From NCBI RefSeq assembly GCF_019063845.1, contig NZ_CP077683.1, positions 4,812,501-4,876,500 of the forward strand: a stretch of 64,000 nucleotides of DNA. The letters run 5' to 3'. Numbering within the stretch: position 1 is the stretch's first letter; each line of letters opens with the position of its first letter. Both the position numbers and the translations under genes were made by a program. The stretch comes from Geomonas subterranea (GTDB lineage Bacteria; Desulfobacterota; Desulfuromonadia; Geobacterales; Geobacteraceae). Below, piece by piece: positions 9,380 through 22,276 of the stretch. A model generated the notes under the pieces. It was given only the letters and a program-made list of their open reading frames with translations. It was not told where the DNA came from and ran no database searches.

Positions 9380-9902
9380 GTCGGGTAGTTTAACAGAAAG
9401 TGCAGTGAACCGTGACACCAGGCAGCGAAATTTGCGGAGTCTGCTACTATTAAGACTCTGTAAAAAATTCATTCCCTTCTGGATCTGGTGAGAGTGCCAA
9501 GAGGTGATCAAAGAGCGGGAAGGGCAAACGGAGAGCATAAAAAAAGCCCGATGATTTTGCTCACCGAGCTTTTTCTGAAAAAATAACTGACGTCCACGTA
9601 GAACCTGCTCGATCCGTGCGGGATGGGTTTTTGCTGCATGAAGTTGATACCAGGGCCATCCTTTTCTGGTCTTTTTATGCCATAACGGAGGAGATCTAGA
9701 GCCTTATCGGCTTGGTCTACCGAACGCCAGTTACCAACCCCACATGCCGCTTCATGCATCTGGAGTTGTTTTGATTTGGTTGTCAAAGTCGCTGTTTTTG
9801 CTTCCCTCCATAAGAATCATTCTACTCCGGGCTCTTATGGCGTTCAATACCTTTTTTGTGTCTGCGCGCTCCGCAGAAAGTACAGTGCCGGGAGACTCCC
9901 TC
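9380..9902. other. Intergenic stretch with a terminator hairpin and no convincing gene
   Basis: This 523-base gap holds one minus-strand open frame (9508-9786, 92 codons from TTG). It is not recognised as any family and lacks a good start. A terminator-like hairpin (9540-9576) lies inside that frame. The stretch could be a decayed gene or a noncoding transcript. On the plus strand an in-frame 5' extension of the radical SAM gene is hydrophobic and unconserved-looking, so it is treated as noncoding. Confidence 0.4.
9540..9576 (-). terminator. Putative minus-strand terminator hairpin
   Basis: Read on the minus strand, AAAGCTCGGTGA pairs with TCATCGGGCTTT (two G-U pairs) around a six-base loop and is followed by a T run. 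It would end a transcript coming from about 9780, for which no firm gene is seen. Confidence 0.55.
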
Positions 9903-11345
9903 GTGTCGTCACGCATACTCATGATAAGCACGAACCGTGAGACGGCACCGCAGCCGGCGGTACCGCTCGGGGCCGCCTGGGTAGCCGAAGCACTGCGACA
10001 GGCGGGCTTCCACGTCCGCTTCCTGGACCTTTGCTTCGAGCGCGAACCGGTCGCCGCTGTCGTGGCGGCGCTCACCCGGTTCGCACCGGATGGCATTGCC
10101 CTTTCTGTCAGGAATCTCGACAACTGCAACTTCCTCGCGCCGAAGTCTTACCTTCCCGAAGTACGGGACGTCGTCCGCGCCATAAAGGGCCACTCCGGTG
10201 CCCGTGTCCTCATCGGAGGGGCCGGGGTGAGCATCCTGCCGCACCAGGTACTGGAATACCTGGAACTTGATCACGCCGTGGTGGGGGAGGGGGAGCGGGC
10301 GGCTGTGGAGTTTTTCAGCGCGGGTAATGCCGACGCAGCCGGGCGGGTGGCCGGAGTGGTCTGCAGGAATGGTGCGCCAGATCAGCAATCCGCTCCACTC
10401 CGGGGACACTGCGACCAATCGGTGATGCCGCGGCTGCATGAGTGGGTCGATGCCAGGAGGTACCTGGCACAGGAACCGGTGCTCCCGGTCCAGGGGAAAC
10501 GGGGCTGTGCCCATCGCTGCCTTTACTGCACGTACCGTCAGATAGAAGGGGAATCCTGGCGGGTGCGGGACCCTTCCGCGGTGGTGGACGAGATCATCGA
10601 GTCGATGCGGCAAACTTCAGCCCGGGAATTCGAGTTCGTGGACAGCATCTTCAACGAGCCTGAGGGGTACCTGGAACTGCTGCTGGAAGAGGTGCTGAGA
10701 CGCGACGTGAAGGCGCGGTTCTGCGCTTCCTCCCTCTCGCCGAAAGGGGTGACGGCGGAGCAGCTCCGGCTGATGGAACGGGCCGGCATGACGTCGCTGG
10801 TGATCACCCCCGAGAGCGCTGCGGGAGCCACGCTGGCCGCCTTGCAGAAGGGGTTCGACGAGGACGACGTTAACCGCACGGCCGAACTCCTTGGCCGCTC
10901 GCGCCTGAGGGCGCTCTGGTGCTTTCTCGTCGGCGGCCCCAAAGAGGACGAGGAGACCCTGGGGCAGACGGTGGCTTTTCTTAACCGCCATGTCGGCAGC
11001 AAGGATGGCGCCTTCATTACCACGGGATTGCGTATCTATCCCGGGACTGGGCTGCACCTGCTTGCCTTGCAGGAGGGGGCGGTCCACGCGGATGACGACC
11101 TGCTGATGCCGTCCTTCTATTTCTCCCCGCAGCTGACCCCGGAACGAGCCCGGGCGCTGCTGGACCGCGGGGTGCACCACGGCCGCTGCATCCACCTCAC
11201 CGAAACCCAAGCCCTCGGACTGGGGACTCTGCGCCGCATCGGTACTGCGATTGGGCTGCCGACACCTTTCTGGCGCTACGCAGGATATGCCAGGGGTGCA
11301 CTAAGGACATGGCGGGGGCAGGGGGGGGACCCGGCGCGGCGGTAA
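9903..11345 (+). CDS. B12-binding-type radical SAM protein
   Basis: This 480-residue enzyme has an N-terminal Rossmann-like cobalamin-binding-type domain (about 1-150, with the typical HAVVGEGE strand near 124-131). It is followed by a radical SAM core whose [4Fe-4S] cluster is bound by C202-A-H-R-C206-L-Y-C209. The classical DxHxxG cobalamin motif is not evident, so B12 dependence is uncertain. The GTG at 9903 is chosen because the protein then begins with the usual RILMISTN strand; the frame is open further upstream. It heads a plus-strand series ending in a type III polyketide synthase, which suggests a C-methylation or rearrangement on a lipid or polyketide. The exact reaction cannot be read from sequence. 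Confidence 0.85.
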   Translation: MSSRILMISTNRETAPQPAVPLGAAWVAEALRQAGFHVRFLDLCFEREPVAAVVAALTRFAPDGIALSVRNLDNCNFLAPKSYLPEVRDVVRAIKGHSGARVLIGGAGVSILPHQVLEYLELDHAVVGEGERAAVEFFSAGNADAAGRVAGVVCRNGAPDQQSAPLRGHCDQSVMPRLHEWVDARRYLAQEPVLPVQGKRGCAHRCLYCTYRQIEGESWRVRDPSAVVDEIIESMRQTSAREFEFVDSIFNEPEGYLELLLEEVLRRDVKARFCASSLSPKGVTAEQLRLMERAGMTSLVITPESAAGATLAALQKGFDEDDVNRTAELLGRSRLRALWCFLVGGPKEDEETLGQTVAFLNRHVGSKDGAFITTGLRIYPGTGLHLLALQEGAVHADDDLLMPSFYFSPQLTPERARALLDRGVHHGRCIHLTETQALGLGTLRRIGTAIGLPTPFWRYAGYARGALRTWRGQGGDPARR

Positions 11346-11464
11346 TGGTTATCTGCAATTCAGGTTTTATTTTAGGGGGCGTCAGAGTGATCTGCCGCAG
11401 AAACGGCCGTGACCGCAATCGATGCACCCTGGTGCCGAGGCCGGTCAGCCCCAAGGGAGAGTAT

Positions 11465-12268
11465 ATGCAGCCCGTTCACGACAAGTCTTCCTTCCCTTTG
11501 GTCCAGTGCTGCCTGCTGTTCATGTTGCTGCTGGTCCTCTCATGCGGCCCCGCGCACGGGGCTCCCGTCGCGGTTCATTTCACCGAGGGGATGGCGCGGG
11601 GCTTTCTGGAACTGAACGATTCTGCCGGCCGGCGCATAGCGTCAGGTGATTTCCTGCAGCTCCCGAGGGAAGGTGAGATAAAGACCCGGGTCGTTCTTTA
11701 TTTCAAGGACGGCTCGCTGCACGACGAGACGGTGGTCTTCTCGCAGCAGCACAAATTCCTGTTGAAGAGCTACCGGCTGATCCAGAAGGGGAAGGCGTTC
11801 GAGGACGACCTCGATGTCACCCTGGAGCGCGTCACCGGCAAGTACCGGGTAAAGGTGAAGGGCAAAGACGGGCGCGAGAAGGTGCTCGAAGGGGAGTTGG
11901 AGCTCCCCCAGGACGTCTATAACGGCATGGTTCCCACCGTCATGAAGAATCTCACCAAGGGGAGCAGGGAAACGATCCACATGGTCGTTTTCACCCCGAC
12001 CCCCAGGGTGATAGAGCTGGAGATGGCGCCGGCGGGCAGCACCAAGGCCCAGATCGGCGACGTGGAAAGGACCGCCGTCCACTATGTCCTGAAGCCGCAC
12101 CTCGGCCTGCTGAGGCTCCCTGCTGCGCTCCTGGGGAAGAGCCCGCCGGACAACCACATCTGGACCATCATGGACGAGGTGCCCGCCTTCGTGAAGTTCG
12201 AGGGGCCGCTCTCTACTGGCGGTCCCGTCTGGCGCATCGAGTTGACCAGCCCCACGTGGCCCAAATAA
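11465..12268 (+). CDS. Secreted protein of unknown function
   Basis: This 267-residue protein has an N-terminal signal peptide (hydrophobic CCLLFMLLLVLSCG, then AHGAPV). Cleavage is probably near residue 32; a lipobox reading at LVLSCG is also possible. The mature part is predicted beta-rich, with alternating charged strands and no cysteine clusters or catalytic motif. The family is not recognised. A GGGAGAG ribosome-binding site precedes the ATG. It lies 119 bases after the radical SAM gene and 22 bases before the methyltransferase, so it is probably part of the same operon. A periplasmic carrier or binding role for a lipid product is only a guess from position. Confidence 0.65.
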   Translation: MQPVHDKSSFPLVQCCLLFMLLLVLSCGPAHGAPVAVHFTEGMARGFLELNDSAGRRIASGDFLQLPREGEIKTRVVLYFKDGSLHDETVVFSQQHKFLLKSYRLIQKGKAFEDDLDVTLERVTGKYRVKVKGKDGREKVLEGELELPQDVYNGMVPTVMKNLTKGSRETIHMVVFTPTPRVIELEMAPAGSTKAQIGDVERTAVHYVLKPHLGLLRLPAALLGKSPPDNHIWTIMDEVPAFVKFEGPLSTGGPVWRIELTSPTWPK

Positions 12269-12290: not shown

Positions 12291-12998
12291 ATGCCATTGA
12301 TCCCCCGCAAAAGGACAACTCTCGAGTTCCTCGACCTCCCTCCGGAGGTCTGCACCCAGGAGGAACTTGAGGAGAGCCTCGCCGACCTCAGGACGGTGAA
12401 CCGCTACCTGGGCGACACCCGGGCTCTATTGAAGCACCTCTCCGGCAAGGTGCAGGGGCAGCGGCACATCTCCGTGCTCGATGTAGCGACCGGTTCAGCC
12501 GACCTTCCGGTTGCCATCGTCGAGTGGGCGAGGGGGCAGGGGCTCGGCGTCAGTGTTACCGGCGTCGACGTAAACAGCAGGACCATCGATATCGCGCGCC
12601 GGTATGCCAGTGGGTACCCCGAGATCAAGCTGATGGTTGCGGACGCCCTGCACCTGCCGTTTCGGGACCACAGCTTCGACGTCGTGCTCTGCAGCAAGAG
12701 CCTGCATCACATGAAGGAGCCGGAAGCGGTAACGGCGATGAAGGAGATGCTCCGGGTGGCACGGCGGGGCTTCATCGTCATGGACCTGCGCAGGAGCTGG
12801 ATCGCCTATTTTCTCATCTACCTGCTCACCAGGATCTTCACCCGTAACCGCATGACCCGCTACGATGGCCCTCTTTCGGTCCTCAAGGCGTTTACCGCCG
12901 GCGAGCTGCGGGAATGCGCGGCGAAGGCGGGAGCCACGTCCGTCCACGTCCGTCGCGAGCCTTTCTGGTTGCTGGTCGTTTCCGGGGAGAGCCCATGA
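12291..12998 (+). CDS. Class I SAM-dependent methyltransferase (UbiE-like)
   Basis: This 235-residue protein has methyltransferase motif I VLDVATGSADLP (about 64-75), the acidic residue after beta-2 in TGVDVNS, a motif II-like ADALHLPFRDHSFDVV and post-motif CSKSLHHMKEP, typical of the UbiE/COQ5 group. A hydrophobic stretch after RRSWIAYFLIYLL suggests membrane or lipid-substrate contact. Its stop codon overlaps the start of the U32 gene as ATGA, so the two are translationally coupled. A C- or O-methyltransferase acting on the aromatic product of the downstream polyketide synthase is the simplest contextual reading. Confidence 0.85.
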   Translation: MPLIPRKRTTLEFLDLPPEVCTQEELEESLADLRTVNRYLGDTRALLKHLSGKVQGQRHISVLDVATGSADLPVAIVEWARGQGLGVSVTGVDVNSRTIDIARRYASGYPEIKLMVADALHLPFRDHSFDVVLCSKSLHHMKEPEAVTAMKEMLRVARRGFIVMDLRRSWIAYFLIYLLTRIFTRNRMTRYDGPLSVLKAFTAGELRECAAKAGATSVHVRREPFWLLVVSGESP

Positions 12999-14230
12999 AA
13001 TTCTCCGTCGCTACCAATTTCGAAGCTGATCTCCTGCCGGCGCTGGAAGGGTACCCCGTCGCCGAGCTGTTCGGGAAGCTCCCTGCCGACAGTGTGGGGG
13101 GAGGCCGGGCCTCCTTCATGCTGGCCCCCTTGAGCAAGGCGCGGTTCAGGGCGCACGTGCAGGAAGCCGCGCGCCGCGGTATCGGCTTCAACTACCTCGT
13201 GAACCCCGCCTGCATGGACAACCGCGAGTTCATCCGGAAAGGGCAGGCGGAACTGGAGCGCCTGCTTGCTTTCGTGGAGGAATGCGGCGTTACCTCGGTC
13301 ACCGTTTCCCTTCCCTTTCTGCTCCCCATCATCAAGAAGCGTCATCCGCGTCTCAAGGTGCGGGTCGGCGTGTACGCGCGGGTCGACTGCGTGGCGAAGG
13401 CCCGGTTCTGGGAGGACCTCGGGGCGGACTGCATCACCCTCGAATCGATCGCGGTGAACCGCGACTTCCCCATGCTGGGGTCGATCCGGCAGGCGGTGGG
13501 CCTGGAACTGCAGCTGATCGCCAACTCCAACTGCCTCATCTTCTGTCCCCTCTCCGGTCAGCACATGGTGAACCTCTCCCACGCCTCGCAAAAGGGGCAC
13601 GCAAGCCGCGGTTTCATGATCGATTACTGCGCGCTCAAGTGTTCCGCGCTGAAACTGGCCGACCCGTCCCATTATCTGCGCTCGGAGTTCATAAGGCCTG
13701 AGGACATGAAGGTCTATACCGGCCTTGGTTTCAATTCGTTCAAGATACTGGAGCGCGGGGCGCCCACCGACGTGCTGGCCCGCCGGGTCCGGGCCTACGC
13801 CGAGGGGCGTTTCGACGGCAACCTGCTGGACCTGATCCAGCCCTACGGCTACAAGACCAGCTCGCCGAAGGGGGGGCGCCTGCTCGATTTCCAGAGGTTC
13901 GCCAGGTTTTTCTTCCGCCCGATGGCCGTCAGCCAGACGGGGCTGCTCCGCCTCAAGCGGCTGGCGGAGAAGCGCGGCCTGCTGGCCGGCCTTCCCTGGG
14001 ACCCGGTCTTTATCGACAACCGGCTTCTGGACGGCTTCCTGGACGGCATGAGAGAGATCGACTGCCGGAGCGGCGATTGCTCCCGGTGCGGCTACTGCGA
14101 ACGCTGGAGCAGGGAAGCAGTGCGGGTGGATGAACGGTACCGGCAGGAGATGCTGCGGCTATACGACGCCGCGTTCAATGACATGTACTCCGGTGCGCTC
14201 TGGGGCGTTGCCGAAAGGAGGGGAGAATGA
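12995..14230 (+). CDS. Peptidase U32 family protein (UbiU/UbiV-like Fe-S protein)
   Basis: This 411-residue protein has the U32 barrel. Cys180 and Cys184 in NSNCLIFCPLSGQH plus Cys212 and Cys216 in DYCALKC resemble the four-cysteine [4Fe-4S] site of the O2-independent hydroxylases UbiU, UbiV and RlhA. A C-terminal group C357-X4-C362-X2-C365-X2-C368 could bind a second cluster. Despite the name, most characterised U32 members hydroxylate rings or tRNA/rRNA bases rather than cleave peptides. It overlaps both neighbours by ATGA junctions, between a UbiE-like methyltransferase and a type III polyketide synthase. That placement argues for hydroxylation of an aromatic polyketide without oxygen; this is inference. 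Confidence 0.85.
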   Translation: MKFSVATNFEADLLPALEGYPVAELFGKLPADSVGGGRASFMLAPLSKARFRAHVQEAARRGIGFNYLVNPACMDNREFIRKGQAELERLLAFVEECGVTSVTVSLPFLLPIIKKRHPRLKVRVGVYARVDCVAKARFWEDLGADCITLESIAVNRDFPMLGSIRQAVGLELQLIANSNCLIFCPLSGQHMVNLSHASQKGHASRGFMIDYCALKCSALKLADPSHYLRSEFIRPEDMKVYTGLGFNSFKILERGAPTDVLARRVRAYAEGRFDGNLLDLIQPYGYKTSSPKGGRLLDFQRFARFFFRPMAVSQTGLLRLKRLAEKRGLLAGLPWDPVFIDNRLLDGFLDGMREIDCRSGDCSRCGYCERWSREAVRVDERYRQEMLRLYDAAFNDMYSGALWGVAERRGE

Positions 14231-15312
14231 GCGATGCAGCCATTACCGGGGGGGAGTCCCCGGGAGCGAGAGCGTACGTCGCATCGATAGCGTCCGCCGT
14301 GCCGCGCTTCAGTGTGTGCCAGAGGGTCACCGCCGACCTGGTTCGTGAGCATTTCAGGGAAACGCTCACGCCGAGAAGCATGGGGCTGATCCGAGCTACC
14401 TTCGAGCATCCGAGCATCGAGAAGCGGCACTTCGCCGTGGACGACCCCGCCCGCATCTTCAGCGAAACGCAAGACCAGCGGGTGGCGCGCTTCACGGAGC
14501 AGTCCATCAGCCTCGCGGCCGAGGCGGTAACCAAGGCGCTGGAAACGGCGGGGGTGACGGTTCAGCAGGTGAAGGGGCTCGTGGTCAATACCTGTACCGG
14601 ATACATCTGTCCCGGGATCTCGACCTATCTGGCGCAGCGGATGGGGCTCTCCCCACGCGCCAGGCTGTACGATCTCGTCGGCAGTGGGTGCGGCGGCGCC
14701 ATCCCCAACCTGCAGGTTGCCGAGTCCATGCTGAGGATGACGGGAGGGGTGGTGGTGAGCGTCGCGGTGGAGATCTGCAGCGCCGCCTTTCAGATGGGGA
14801 ACGACCTGAGCCTCATCCTCTCCAACGCGCTCTTTGGAGACGGGGCCGCGGCGGCGGTGCTGTGGGAAAAGCCGTCCGGGTTCGAGTTGTACGGATCCGC
14901 CGGACGTTACGTGCCGGAGCAGCGGGAGGCGATCCGGTTCGTGCACAAGGGGGGGGAGTTGCACAACCAGTTGTCGACCGACCTCCCCGGGTTGGTCGGC
15001 AAGGCGGCGGCCGAGGTGGTGGACGATCTGCTCGAAGCGTCCCCCGTCGCCAAGAGCGATATCGGCGGATGGGCGCTGCACACGGGCGGAGAGAAGGTGA
15101 TCAATGCGGTGCGGGACCAGGTGGGAATCCCGGAAGAGCGGCTCCGGGCGACACGGAAGGTACTCTCCCAGTACGGCAACATGTCCTCGCCGACCGTGTG
15201 GTTCGTGCTGGAAGAGATGCTGCAGGAGGGGATGCCCGCCGGCGAGTGGTGCGTCCTGCTCGCCTATGGTGCCGGTCTCTCCGCACATGCGTGCTTGCTG
15301 AGGAAGGTCTGA
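14227..15312 (+). CDS. Type III polyketide synthase (chalcone/stilbene synthase family)
   Basis: This 361-residue homodimeric thiolase-fold enzyme condenses an acyl-CoA or acyl-ACP starter with malonyl units to make pyrones, resorcinols or related phenolic lipids. The complete triad is visible: Cys155 in VGSGCGGAIP, His285 in WALHTGGEK and Asn318 in YGNMSSPT. It is full length. Its ATG overlaps the U32 stop as ATGA. Bacterial relatives such as ArsB/ArsC and SrsA make alkylresorcinols and alkylpyrones, and SrsA sits with a methyltransferase and a flavin hydroxylase. No flavin enzyme is seen here. The product cannot be predicted from motifs alone. Confidence 0.9.
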   Translation: MSDAAITGGESPGARAYVASIASAVPRFSVCQRVTADLVREHFRETLTPRSMGLIRATFEHPSIEKRHFAVDDPARIFSETQDQRVARFTEQSISLAAEAVTKALETAGVTVQQVKGLVVNTCTGYICPGISTYLAQRMGLSPRARLYDLVGSGCGGAIPNLQVAESMLRMTGGVVVSVAVEICSAAFQMGNDLSLILSNALFGDGAAAAVLWEKPSGFELYGSAGRYVPEQREAIRFVHKGGELHNQLSTDLPGLVGKAAAEVVDDLLEASPVAKSDIGGWALHTGGEKVINAVRDQVGIPEERLRATRKVLSQYGNMSSPTVWFVLEEMLQEGMPAGEWCVLLAYGAGLSAHACLLRKV

Positions 15313-15396: not shown

Positions 15397-16809
15397 TTAA
15401 AACCTGTGCCGGGAGCGGAACTGGTCGCCGGTGAAGAATCCCCGGACCAGGTCGAGGTTGTTCAAGAGCACCTTCAGCGCACCTTTCTCACGCTTCCTGA
15501 CGAAGTAGTTGCCGATGAACATGGAGGGGCTGAAAAAAGCCTTCAGGTTTTCCCAGTTCATGATCCTGTTCAACTGCCCTACGCTGAGCCGCTTCGTCCT
15601 CACATTGCACATGAACCCGGTGTACCTGCTCAGGCGGTCGGGATTGGTCACCAGGCCCGCCTCCAGCAGTTCTTCCCTGATCCTGGTGCCGGGATACGGG
15701 GTCACGCACTGCACGTAGGGAAGGTCGATGCCGAGCCTGCGCGAGGCGCGGAACACCTCCCGGATCTCCTCCGGCCCGTCGTCCGGGTTGCCGATGATGA
15801 ACCCACCCATCACGCCGATGCCATGCTGCCGCAGCAGGCGTACCGCCCGCTCCGTCTTTTCCCTGATATCCCCCTTCTGAAAAAGAGCCAGGTTTTGAGG
15901 AAGCACCGACTCGATGCCGAGAAACACCATGGCGAAATTGGCCCGGGCCAGCGCCGGTATCAGTTCGGGATCTGCGACGATGCCGGCGACCGAAGCCTGC
16001 ACCAGGTACTCCATGCTGTTCAGTCCGTGCTCCACGATGGCACGGGCAAGGCTGGTAAAGCGTTGGCTGTCCAGGGTGATGTTGTCGTCGACCAGCAGCA
16101 CGGTCCGCGTGCCCCGCTTTTGCAGCTCCTTCAAGTCGGCGATGACACGCTCAATGCCGTAGCAGCGGAAACTGGTCCCGTACATCCCGGTAATGGAGCA
16201 GAAGGTGCAGGTCATGGTGCAGCCGCGGGAGGTCTCGACGCAGTCGAGTTTGCGGTCGAAATAGGTGAAGCCGTCGAGCACGCGGGCGTCGCGCTCGGGT
16301 AGTGGTAGCCGCGCGACATCGAGCAGCGGTCCGGCCGTGTTATGGATGAACGCGCCATTGTGGCGCCAGGATAGTCCGGGTACATCGAAGAGGGTACGCT
16401 GTCCGTCCAGCGCCTCCAAAAGCGCCGGGAAAGATTGCTCCCCCTCACCGCGCAGCAGGAAATCAAAAGGGGGAGAGTCGTGAGTGAGCTCCCGGTACGA
16501 GAGGGTGGCGTGATACCCTCCCAGCACCAGCGTGGTGTGGGGGAGAAAGGTGCGGCAAATCGACATCACCCTCAGCGCGCTTTCGTACTGGAAGCTCATG
16601 CTGCTGATGCCGATCACGTCAGGCCGGAAATCGTGCAGGAAGCGCTGCAGCCACGCCTGGATGTTCCGGTGCACCAGCACCAGGTCCACGACCTTCACCT
16701 CGTGCAGCTTGAGCTGGGCGGCGATGGAGCAGAGCCCCAGGTTGGGCACCTTGATGATGCGATGGAAGTTGTTGGCGGCGTCCGGCATCGCCAAAAGGAG
16801 TATCTTCAT
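15397..16809 (-). CDS. B12-binding domain radical SAM protein
   Basis: This 470-residue protein has an N-terminal cobalamin-binding-type Rossmann domain (1-140: MKILLLAMPD, GISSMSF, LVLGGYHAT, LLRGEGE). The radical SAM core follows, with Cys197-X3-Cys201-X2-Cys204 in SRGCTMTCTFC. The C-terminal part (about 380-470) is the accessory region common in BchE-like and hopanoid-modifying enzymes. It converges on the polyketide synthase gene and is the second such enzyme in the island, which suggests involvement in the same lipid or polyketide pathway. The specific chemistry is unknown. Confidence 0.88.
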   Translation of the reverse strand: MKILLLAMPDAANNFHRIIKVPNLGLCSIAAQLKLHEVKVVDLVLVHRNIQAWLQRFLHDFRPDVIGISSMSFQYESALRVMSICRTFLPHTTLVLGGYHATLSYRELTHDSPPFDFLLRGEGEQSFPALLEALDGQRTLFDVPGLSWRHNGAFIHNTAGPLLDVARLPLPERDARVLDGFTYFDRKLDCVETSRGCTMTCTFCSITGMYGTSFRCYGIERVIADLKELQKRGTRTVLLVDDNITLDSQRFTSLARAIVEHGLNSMEYLVQASVAGIVADPELIPALARANFAMVFLGIESVLPQNLALFQKGDIREKTERAVRLLRQHGIGVMGGFIIGNPDDGPEEIREVFRASRRLGIDLPYVQCVTPYPGTRIREELLEAGLVTNPDRLSRYTGFMCNVRTKRLSVGQLNRIMNWENLKAFFSPSMFIGNYFVRKREKGALKVLLNNLDLVRGFFTGDQFRSRHRF

Positions 16810-20464: not shown

Positions 20465-22099
20465 TTACCCGAGGATCTGCTTCAGGTCGCCTTCGGCGGT
20501 GCCGATCGGGCCGATGTTGAAGTTCTCGACCAGGAAGTTCAGCACGTTCGGGGTGATGAAGGCGGGGAGGCTCGGTCCCAGCTTGATGTTCTTCACGCCC
20601 AGGTGGAGCAGGGTGAGGAGGATAGCCACCGCCTTCTGCTCGTACCAGGAGAGGATGAAGGAGAGCGGCAGGTCGTTGACGCCGCAGTTGAAGGCGCCGG
20701 CCAAAGCCACGGCGATCTGGATCGCGGAGTAGGCGTCGTTGCACTGGCCGATGTCCAGAAGGCGCGGAATGCCGCCGATGTCGCCGAAGTCGAGCTTGTT
20801 GAAACGGTACTTGCCGCAGGCCAGGGTGAGAATGACGCAGTCGGACGGTACCTGCTCGGCGAACTCGGTGTAGTAGTTACGGCCGGTTTTGGCGCCGTCG
20901 CAGCCGCCGATCAGGAAGAAGTGACGGATCTGACCCGCTTTCACCGCGTCGATGACCTTGTCGGCCACGCCGAGGACCGCGTTGTGCCCGAAGCCGGTGA
21001 GGATCTCCTTGCCCGGGGCCTCTTCGAAGCCGGGGAGGGAGAGCGCCTTCTCGATAACCGGGGAGAAGTCCCAGCCGTTGATGTTCTTGACGTCCGGCCA
21101 CTGGACCAGTCCCCAGGTGAAGAGGCGGTCTTTGTAGCTCTCGGCCGGGCGCTGGATGCAGTTGGTGTTGAAGATGATGGCGCCGGGGAAGTCGACGAAT
21201 TCCTTGGCCTGATCCTGCCATGCGCCGCCGAAGTTGCCGGCCAGGTGGGCGTACTTCTTGAGACCCGGGTAGCCGTGGGCGGGGAGCATTTCGCCGTGGG
21301 TGTAGATGTTGATCCCTTTGCCTTCGGTCTGCTTCAGGAGCTCTTCGAGCATGCGCAGGTCGTGGCCGGAAACGAGGATTGCCTTGCCCGCCTTGGTGCC
21401 GAGCTGTACCGGAGTCGGTACCGGGTGGCCGAAGCTGTCGGTGTTGGCCTTGTCGAGCAGTTCCATGGTGACCAGGTTGATCCTGCCGCACTCCATGGAG
21501 AGGCCGACGTAGTCCATGAGGCCGAGGGTGAGGTCGAGGGTGGCTGCCAGCGCCTTGTGGGTGAAGGCGTAGATCTCGTCGTTCTCGAGACCGATCACCA
21601 ATGCGTGGTGGGCGTAAGCTGCGTACCCTTTCATGCCGTAGATGAGGATTTCTTTCACGGAGTGGACGTCGGCGTCGATCTCTTCGCTCTTGACGCCGTG
21701 CTTGGCGCCCAGTGCGACCAGCTCGGAGGTGGTGCCGGCGTGGAACGCCTGCGCAGCCTCGGGTACGGTGCCGGTGTAGGGGGCGCCGTTGGCCTTCTCG
21801 TACAGTGCCTGTGCCTGGTTGCGCAGGGTGGCTGCTTCACGTACCAGCTTGGCGATTTCCTCGGCGTCGAAGTCGACGTTGGTCACGGTGGTGAAGAGGC
21901 CGTCCAGCATGAAGCGGTCGATGGCTGCATCTTTGGCGCCTTTTTCGCGGGCGAGGTTGGCCCAGAAGGCGATCCCTTTCAGGCTGTAGATGAGCAGGTC
22001 CTGCAGAGCCGCTACTTCCGGCTTCTTGCCGCAGACACCGACTTTGGAGCAACCGCCGTTGGCGGCTTGTTCACACTGGTAGCAAAACATGTTGTCCAT
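20465..22099 (-). CDS. hcp: Hydroxylamine reductase (hybrid-cluster protein)
   Basis: This cytosolic iron-sulfur protein reduces hydroxylamine and/or nitric oxide in nitrosative stress. The N-terminal MFCYQCEQAA...GVCGK supplies the cubane cluster cysteines. The hybrid Fe-S-O cluster ligands lie in the HALVIG, GHDL, FNTNCIQRP, GGCDGAKTGRNYY and ACGKYRF motifs. From ATG 22099, which has TAAGGAGG eight bases upstream, the protein has 544 residues. A second in-frame ATG at 22168 also has an AGGAG site and would add a 23-residue leader (MKTFLKNLFG...), so the start is not certain. A possible HcpR operator lies upstream. The gene is transcribed alone. Confidence 0.95.
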   Translation of the reverse strand: MDNMFCYQCEQAANGGCSKVGVCGKKPEVAALQDLLIYSLKGIAFWANLAREKGAKDAAIDRFMLDGLFTTVTNVDFDAEEIAKLVREAATLRNQAQALYEKANGAPYTGTVPEAAQAFHAGTTSELVALGAKHGVKSEEIDADVHSVKEILIYGMKGYAAYAHHALVIGLENDEIYAFTHKALAATLDLTLGLMDYVGLSMECGRINLVTMELLDKANTDSFGHPVPTPVQLGTKAGKAILVSGHDLRMLEELLKQTEGKGINIYTHGEMLPAHGYPGLKKYAHLAGNFGGAWQDQAKEFVDFPGAIIFNTNCIQRPAESYKDRLFTWGLVQWPDVKNINGWDFSPVIEKALSLPGFEEAPGKEILTGFGHNAVLGVADKVIDAVKAGQIRHFFLIGGCDGAKTGRNYYTEFAEQVPSDCVILTLACGKYRFNKLDFGDIGGIPRLLDIGQCNDAYSAIQIAVALAGAFNCGVNDLPLSFILSWYEQKAVAILLTLLHLGVKNIKLGPSLPAFITPNVLNFLVENFNIGPIGTAEGDLKQILG

Positions 22100-22276
22100 C
22101 ACTTCCTCCTTAGCGTTTGTTTGAGTTGAGGTGGTCATACCGAAAAGGTTCTTCAAAAAGGTCTTCATCGTTTCTCCTGGCTAAGCTTAATCTGTTGAAG
22201 CGGGCCTTATGGCAGCCCCCGGCTCCTGTGTGCCGCTTCGATGATGTGACTCTAGCGGCTAATGCTGACAGCGACC

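Follow-up and report, generated by a model that had tools for sequence, protein, structure and literature searches.

The window analysed here is a stretch of 64,000 nucleotides (positions 4812501-4876500) from the genome of Geomonas subterranea, a single contig of 4.99 Mb whose nearest named relatives are Geomonas species. It contains a three-gene operon for a methyltransferase (MT) dependent on S-adenosylmethionine (SAM), a protein of the U32 family and a type III polyketide synthase (PKS) (Table 1); U32 identity to the named relatives reaches 91%. The three open reading frames (ORFs) and their two ATGA junctions were verified, so that the overlapping genes would place PKS and methyltransferase in one operon. 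The sequence-only reading that preceded this work had these genes, positions and overlaps right, and Pfam domains together with the catalytic residues bear out its UbiE-like methyltransferase and complete PKS. It had also stated that no flavin monooxygenase is present. This is true of the operon, which has no flavin hydroxylase gene of the kind found in alkylresorcinol and polyketide-quinone operons and carries the U32 gene in its stead, but in the whole genome a PF01494 search gave two partial matches (36 and 31 bits; cut-off 22) that cover about half of the profile and fall in frames of 605 and 624 aa.

Table 1. Genes and sites of the operon and its flanks, in window coordinates
Feature	Position	Strand	Remarks
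SAM-dependent methyltransferase, 235 aa	12291..12998	+	Pfam Methyltransf_25/UbiE; PRK06202-like, 153.9 bits, below the model cut-off of 243
U32-family protein, 411 aa, nine-cysteine subfamily	12995..14230	+	Peptidase_U32 (PF01136), 27.4 bits, cut-off 22.4
Codon of conserved C73	13211..13213	+	kept in 78/78 close relatives
Core cysteines C180, C184, C212, C216, candidate Fe-S ligands	13532..13642	+	CX3C-X27-CX3C
C357-X4-C362-X2-C365-X2-C368, C-terminal candidate second metal/Fe-S site	14063..14098	+	
Type III PKS, 361 aa	14227..15312	+	Chal_sti_synt N + C domains; Cys155-His285-Asn318 triad
B12-binding radical SAM protein	9744..11345	+	near TIGR04072 ('lipid biosynthesis'), 333.3 bits, cut-off 360 not reached
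Probable secreted/lipoprotein-like protein (by eye)	11465..12268	+	no Pfam family
B12-binding radical SAM protein, BchE-like (below cut-off)	15397..16809	-	convergent with the operon

The presence of U32 in the flavoprotein slot beside a phenolic-lipid synthase suggests how such lipids might be hydroxylated without oxygen. We think it probable, although well short of certain, that the U32 subfamily of the window does without O2 what the flavin hydroxylase does in making an alkylresorcinol-type lipid. This reading draws on the observed gene order and its conservation, on mutual exclusion at PKS loci and recurrent swaps, and on the predicted U32 fold and conserved cysteines.

Exclusivity was assessed in three sets of loci. 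A PF02797 search of 297 genomes of the window's phylum (24 positive) and 246 of the planctomycete phylum (83 positive) gave two PKS-centred sets, one of 25 loci (the window's own excluded) and one of 87 of the 88 planctomycete matches (G414 was left out). For the third, U32-centred set, a profile scan with alignment A1 returned 115 relatives, of which the best 80 were used; 52 of their loci have a PKS match. Neighbours of the PKS were scored on the same strand within 4 kb with purpose-built hidden Markov models (HMMs), with a threshold of 40 bits for the flavoprotein. The 25 loci of the window's phylum comprise 5 with U32, 7 with a flavin adenine dinucleotide (FAD) flavoprotein and 13 with neither, the 87 planctomycete loci 1, 43 and 43, and the 52 U32-centred PKS loci 48 with U32 and 4 with neither. 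No PKS locus has both partners, and this count remains zero when either strand is accepted. The flavoprotein is the commonest redox partner in the PKS-centred samples (50/112 loci); it occurs in 0/48 U32-centred PKS loci versus 50/106 other PKS-centred loci. The lack of double loci is unsurprising in the sample of the window's phylum alone, and its weight comes from the U32-centred set. The three sets overlap slightly (L082 is in two; L037 and L111 are seemingly one genome) and the loci are related. All eight flavoproteins tested by Pfam belong to PF01494. One PF01494 flavoprotein (L140:5575-7578) is fused to a UbiE-like methyltransferase and adjoins a type III PKS.

The partners have also been exchanged repeatedly. 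On a FastTree phylogeny of the PKS, at least seven switches between U32 and FAD are required. This tree holds 149 of 166 sequences (fragments of fewer than 250 residues were removed earlier, same-label near-copies at 90% later), and its labels count partners up to 2.5 kb away irrespective of strand, of which 58 are FAD. The closest PKS pairs with opposite partners are 59% identical. The clearest case is the YceI-PKS operon type, where U32 and flavoprotein replace each other outright: L134 (YceI-PKS-FAD-RND) and L135 (YceI-PKS-FAD), both from the window's class, stand against L034 (YceI-PKS-U32) and L077/L080 (YceI-PKS-RND-lipoprotein-U32-MT), and the L077/L080 PKS is 56-58% identical to that of L134. 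G267, of the same family as the L135 genome, has a YceI-PKS-RND operon without flavoprotein (L147) and a close U32 on another contig. Also, in L082, a Pirellulales metagenome-assembled genome (MAG), U32 lies inside a PKS clade otherwise mostly partnered by flavoproteins. The earlier proposal that U32 stands in for the O2-dependent hydroxylase is partly supported by locus exclusivity and the switches, and qualified by six genomes, described below, that hold both partners.

The pairing of U32 with type III PKS, which the sequence-only reading had proposed to seek in other genomes, recurs widely. A same-strand PKS lies within 4 kb in 48 of the 80 U32-centred loci, and 37 of these 48 also have MT or an ICMT-type methyltransferase; about 12 phyla are represented among the 80, with taxa assigned from named relatives or record titles. 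The catalytic triad of the PKS is kept in 47, 47 and 46 of 47 U32-linked rows. In the 52 loci with a PKS match the gene orders are (i) U32-MT-PKS in 20 (Lentisphaerae, Kiritimatiellae, Desulfobacteraceae, BRC1 and others), (ii) MT-U32-PKS in 11, (iii) YceI-PKS-U32 in 7, some with intervening genes, (iv) PKS-U32-MT in 4 (Omnitrophota, Riflebacteria) and (v) a few others; in 4 of the 52, no partner lies on the same strand. All 11 loci with Geomonas, Geobacter or Citrifermentans in their title have the window's order. In 37/52 loci no more than 60 bp separate U32 from a PKS, MT, ICMT or YceI gene on its strand. An MMPL-type exporter and a Pfam-less protein separate PKS and U32 in L077, L080 and L085, and a UbiE-like methyltransferase follows U32 in L077 and L080 (families Pfam-checked in L080). 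An ICMT-type methyltransferase adjoins the YceI-PKS-U32 operon in L035, L037, L079, L083 and L111. In the sample of the window's phylum, type III PKS is present in 7/7 genomes with a close U32 versus 24/297 overall (Fisher p 9e-9, which is optimistic because the genomes are related) and in 11 of the 31 genomes with any U32 match at E<=1e-20.

The U32 protein itself has more conserved cysteines than the four that had been supposed. Nine cysteines (C73, C180, C184, C212, C216, C357, C362, C365 and C368) are each conserved in 76-78 of 78 close relatives and, except for C212 (19/29), in 28-29 of 29 more distant ones, the rows having been divided by hand per locus id into 'close' and 'mid'. O2-independent U32 oxidases are described, in the available excerpts of PMC6747719 and PMC11574389, as having four conserved cysteines in the consensus CX6CX15CX3/4C. 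The window protein does not match it, having instead a core CX3C-X27-CX3C with C73, plus a C-terminal CX4CX2CX2C. UbiU and UbiV themselves deviate from the consensus according to the excerpt of PMC6747719, and the C-terminal set was not seen in E. coli UbiU/UbiV in a by-eye comparison. The AlphaFold2 model has a mean pLDDT of 92.9, and the U32 protein 5d88 is its top hit in the PDB (E 2e-11). In the U32 tree (rows of >330 residues, thinned at 75% to 56 including references and then to 32), the window's subfamily forms its own clade with support 100 on a long branch; a joint clade with UbiU+UbiV was not found and was not rejected (p-AU 0.158). Membership in UbiU/UbiV is thus unsupported by the tree and by the profile comparison given below. 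K250 and R254 are invariant in the 48-row U32 alignment A2 (47 of the 49 listed references plus P0002), and the K-I-x-E-R motif that holds them is present in 100/107 U32 relatives; it aligns with the KIEGR of RlhA and resembles that of UbiU, RlhA and TrhP. A tandem U32 pair of the UbiU/UbiV type is absent from the operon, which has one U32 gene. Among distant U32 members, tandem pairs do occur (L042:8075-10431, L041), often close to radical SAM genes; by-eye acyl-activating and acyl-reductase-like genes lie nearby in L040 and L042, and one Omnitrophica locus (L128:206-10007) has four distant family members.

We take the oxidoreductase of SrsABC and PkqABC to be an O2-dependent flavin hydroxylase, for which the window has U32, and SrsB to be of the ICMT type, the class found near PKS-U32 in the five loci named above. 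Like the window, SrsABC of Streptomyces and PkqABC of mycobacteria combine PKS, methyltransferase and a redox enzyme, and a Streptomyces PKS-MT-hydroxylase operon makes alkylbenzoquinones, as the excerpt of PMC9927152 has it. Similar in arrangement, as far as the excerpted texts describe them, are the planctomycete MT-FAD-PKS operons (PMC10896814) and the cyanobacterial hierridin genes hidA-hidB-hidC (PMC8086630), which share the order MT, redox enzyme and, last, PKS. Their MT and PKS are homologous to those of the window, which differs in having U32 for the FAD enzyme and, in addition, the upstream B12-radical SAM gene. Methyltransferases of flavoprotein-type PKS operons are 31-40% identical to the window's MT among the 12 best shown. 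UbiU and UbiV (with UbiT) are O2-independent ubiquinone hydroxylases, counterparts of O2-dependent ones, and the same relation is proposed for the window's U32, with which they share the U32 domain, conserved cysteines and, putatively for the window, a ring-lipid substrate. However, UbiU and UbiV form a heterodimer in which each subunit has one cluster (PMC6747719, in excerpt), whereas the window's protein is one 411-aa chain with two cysteine sets of other spacing. RlhA and TrhP, which act in rRNA and tRNA hydroxylation, share the U32 core, the KIEGR-like motif and the best profile matches; they differ in their RNA substrates and cysteine spacing. We know of no PKS context for RlhA or TrhP.

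In the pathway we propose, the PKS would elongate a fatty acyl starter by adding malonyl units and close an aromatic, resorcinol-type ring, which the methyltransferase would then methylate. U32 would put a hydroxyl on this ring without O2, the job of the PF01494 flavin hydroxylase in sister operons, and radical SAM tailoring and export possibly come last, after methylation and hydroxylation. U32 would act in the mode of UbiU/UbiV, RlhA and TrhP, as a TIM barrel with Fe-S clusters and with prephenate as the oxygen source. Ring product, hydroxylation, cluster content and oxygen donor are thus predicted by analogy with these families and with SrsABC/PkqABC. For UbiU/UbiV, RlhA and TrhP, the excerpt of PMC11574389 reports prephenate as the likely oxygen source. 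We also raise, tentatively and as a rather doubtful extension, a widespread O2-independent polyketide-quinone pathway, in which a single-chain, two-cluster U32 protein using prephenate oxygen would turn alkylresorcinols into methylated hydroquinone/quinone lipids, membrane redox carriers of Geomonas and others beside menaquinone, and genomes with both enzymes would switch between U32 and the flavin enzyme, as E. coli does for ubiquinone. To our knowledge, phenolic-lipid and polyketide-quinone tailoring has been described only with O2-using enzymes. The literature searched, which leaves most subscription papers outside its coverage, yielded no publication on the pairing of U32 with type III PKS. 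If the proposal is true, O2-independent U32 hydroxylation would reach beyond ubiquinone and RNA into polyketide chemistry, the window's U32 would offer a single-protein model for a poorly understood reaction, new redox or membrane lipids would be predicted in anoxic habitats, and 'peptidase U32' genes adjoining PKS genes would gain an annotation rule.

Several results weigh against U32 as the counterpart of the flavin hydroxylase. Type III PKS loci with neither partner are common (13/25 and 43/87), exclusivity partly follows phylogeny, and the flavoproteins beyond the eight tested by Pfam were assigned by the in-house HMM at 40 bits. In planctomycetes, type III PKS is present in 3/7 genomes with a close U32 versus 83/246, so that enrichment is unclear there. 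Also, 28/80 U32 loci have no visible PKS (some are truncated by contig ends), and a PF02797 match is missing in 18/49 U32 genomes searched, among them G327, in which tblastn finds a PKS beside U32. A rule that U32 always accompanies type III PKS was rejected on account of these 28 loci and of Nitrospirae, where MT-U32 is paired with a polyketide cyclase (PF03364) and a ketosynthase (PF00109) without type III PKS (L066-L068, e.g. L066:9185-12919; families Pfam-checked in L066). Furthermore, eight U32 genomes with a type III PKS elsewhere were fetched (G304, G308, G316, G320, G323, G324, G329 and G339), and in six of them (G304, G320, G323, G324, G329 and G339) a flavoprotein lies beside the distant PKS. 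The mutual exclusivity that the sequence-only reading had proposed to look for therefore holds for PKS loci, none of which has both, but not for genomes. Genomes with U32 and a separate flavoprotein-PKS fit alternative oxic and anoxic routes, comparable to those of E. coli for ubiquinone, or else a different role for their U32. Finally, in a profile comparison with single E. coli sequences, the U32 profile is closer to TrhP (1e-10) and RlhA (8e-8) than to UbiU (1.9e-5), and UbiV gave no match (E 0.04).

Three other readings have to be weighed. The profile similarity, highest to TrhP and RlhA, and the Pfam name Peptidase_U32 would suit a U32 protein that modifies RNA or is a peptidase, with incidental PKS adjacency, as would the 18/49 genomes without a type III PKS match. 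We consider this most improbable: U32 is found with PKS and methyltransferase genes repeatedly and in several arrangements, and the genome of the window carries two further U32 genes, at 1.90 and 4.36 Mb. A peptidase or RNA-modifying role was set aside because the PKS context recurs. U32 might instead belong to the same pathway without hydroxylating, serving ring reduction, dehydroxylation, rearrangement or electron supply to the B12-radical SAM enzyme. Electron transfer would be in keeping with nine cysteines and perhaps a second cluster, and no neighbour is as constant in the window's PKS clade as the B12-radical SAM gene (23/24 loci listed), which occurs without U32 in planctomycetes. Moreover, and again to the detriment of our proposal, what the FAD oxidoreductase of planctomycetes does is not established according to the excerpt of PMC10896814. 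However, U32 also accompanies PKS clades that lack this radical SAM gene (e.g. L034, L035, L037 and L038), the Fe-S U32 proteins characterised so far are hydroxylases in the excerpts of PMC6747719 and PMC11574389, and the alternation of U32 with a hydroxylase-family flavoprotein points to one net reaction. We regard a non-hydroxylating U32 as unlikely.

The third alternative concerns the product: the PKS may yield alkylpyrones rather than resorcinols, with U32 and MT decorating a pyrone or another product. The closest solved relative of the window's PKS by sequence is Pks11, named as a PKS of alpha-pyrone synthesis. Two points speak against a pyrone. No hydroxylation of pyrones is known to us in such operons. 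Furthermore, PKS from the three-gene MT-FAD-PKS operons of planctomycetes made alkylresorcinols when expressed (PMC10896814, in excerpt), and we consider a pyrone product improbable.

U32 as the partner used by anaerobes, another expectation of the sequence-only reading, survives as a tendency. COX1 is missing in 8/30 U32-PKS genomes versus 0/45 flavoprotein-PKS genomes (p 3.5e-4), a comparison confounded by phylogeny and incompleteness, since planctomycetes make up most of the flavoprotein group and many of the genomes are draft assemblies; COX2 was found in 21/30 versus 44/45. These searches covered 80 genomes, made up of 45 with the flavoprotein, 30 in which U32 lies near PKS irrespective of strand, and five others. 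Groups were picked by hand; G529, G572 and G339 were left out, and G304 was counted with the flavoprotein group despite having a close U32 apart from its PKS. COX1 is carried by 22/30 U32-PKS genomes, a further point against an O2-independent role, and the window's genome has five COX1 matches and one COX2 match. A rule equating U32 with anaerobes was thus rejected, and the enrichment was kept.

The flanking radical SAM genes, both of which had been suggested to act in the pathway, fared differently. The upstream B12-radical SAM gene probably belongs with the window's PKS clade and its lipid pathway, because in 23/24 loci listed of that clade (window excluded) it is no more than 6 kb from the PKS, and eight planctomycete loci (L176, L182, L184, L186, L189, L194, L201 and L211) combine a window-clade PKS with a TIGR04072-like B12-radical SAM gene, with no U32 or MT scored beside them. 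By eye, its true start is perhaps about 50 codons further downstream. A pathway role of the downstream, convergent gene is uncertain; it is kept in the 11 MT-U32-PKS loci and lies beside the PKS in L065. For the lipoprotein-like ORF upstream of the methyltransferase, the mechanical listing gives 11309-12268 and the ATG at 11465 was chosen by eye; tblastn matches its protein in 8/11 MT-U32-PKS loci. A terminator scan gave 4 hits versus a shuffle mean of 5.9, not above shuffles, and a promoter scan gave 3 versus 1.1.

Some U32 loci lie in other contexts. In seven MAG loci assigned by title to Verrucomicrobiota, Acidobacteria and Gemmatimonadetes (L097, L098, L103, L105, L110, L112 and L133), a U32 protein 85-88% identical to that of L038 has no PKS nearby; an alpha/beta-hydrolase-like gene is close to it in L097, L103, L105 and L133 (family checked in L103). 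In L074 (8514-11775), a close U32 relative lies between anthranilate synthase component I and a TrpG-like class I glutamine amidotransferase; a link of this U32 to chorismate metabolism would fit a prephenate-type oxygen donor. Within the window, an ORF at 20465-22168 on the minus strand resembles hydroxylamine reductase/hybrid-cluster protein by eye, no family search having been made, and a similar ORF (L121 13293-14924) adjoins a U32-MT-PKS operon.

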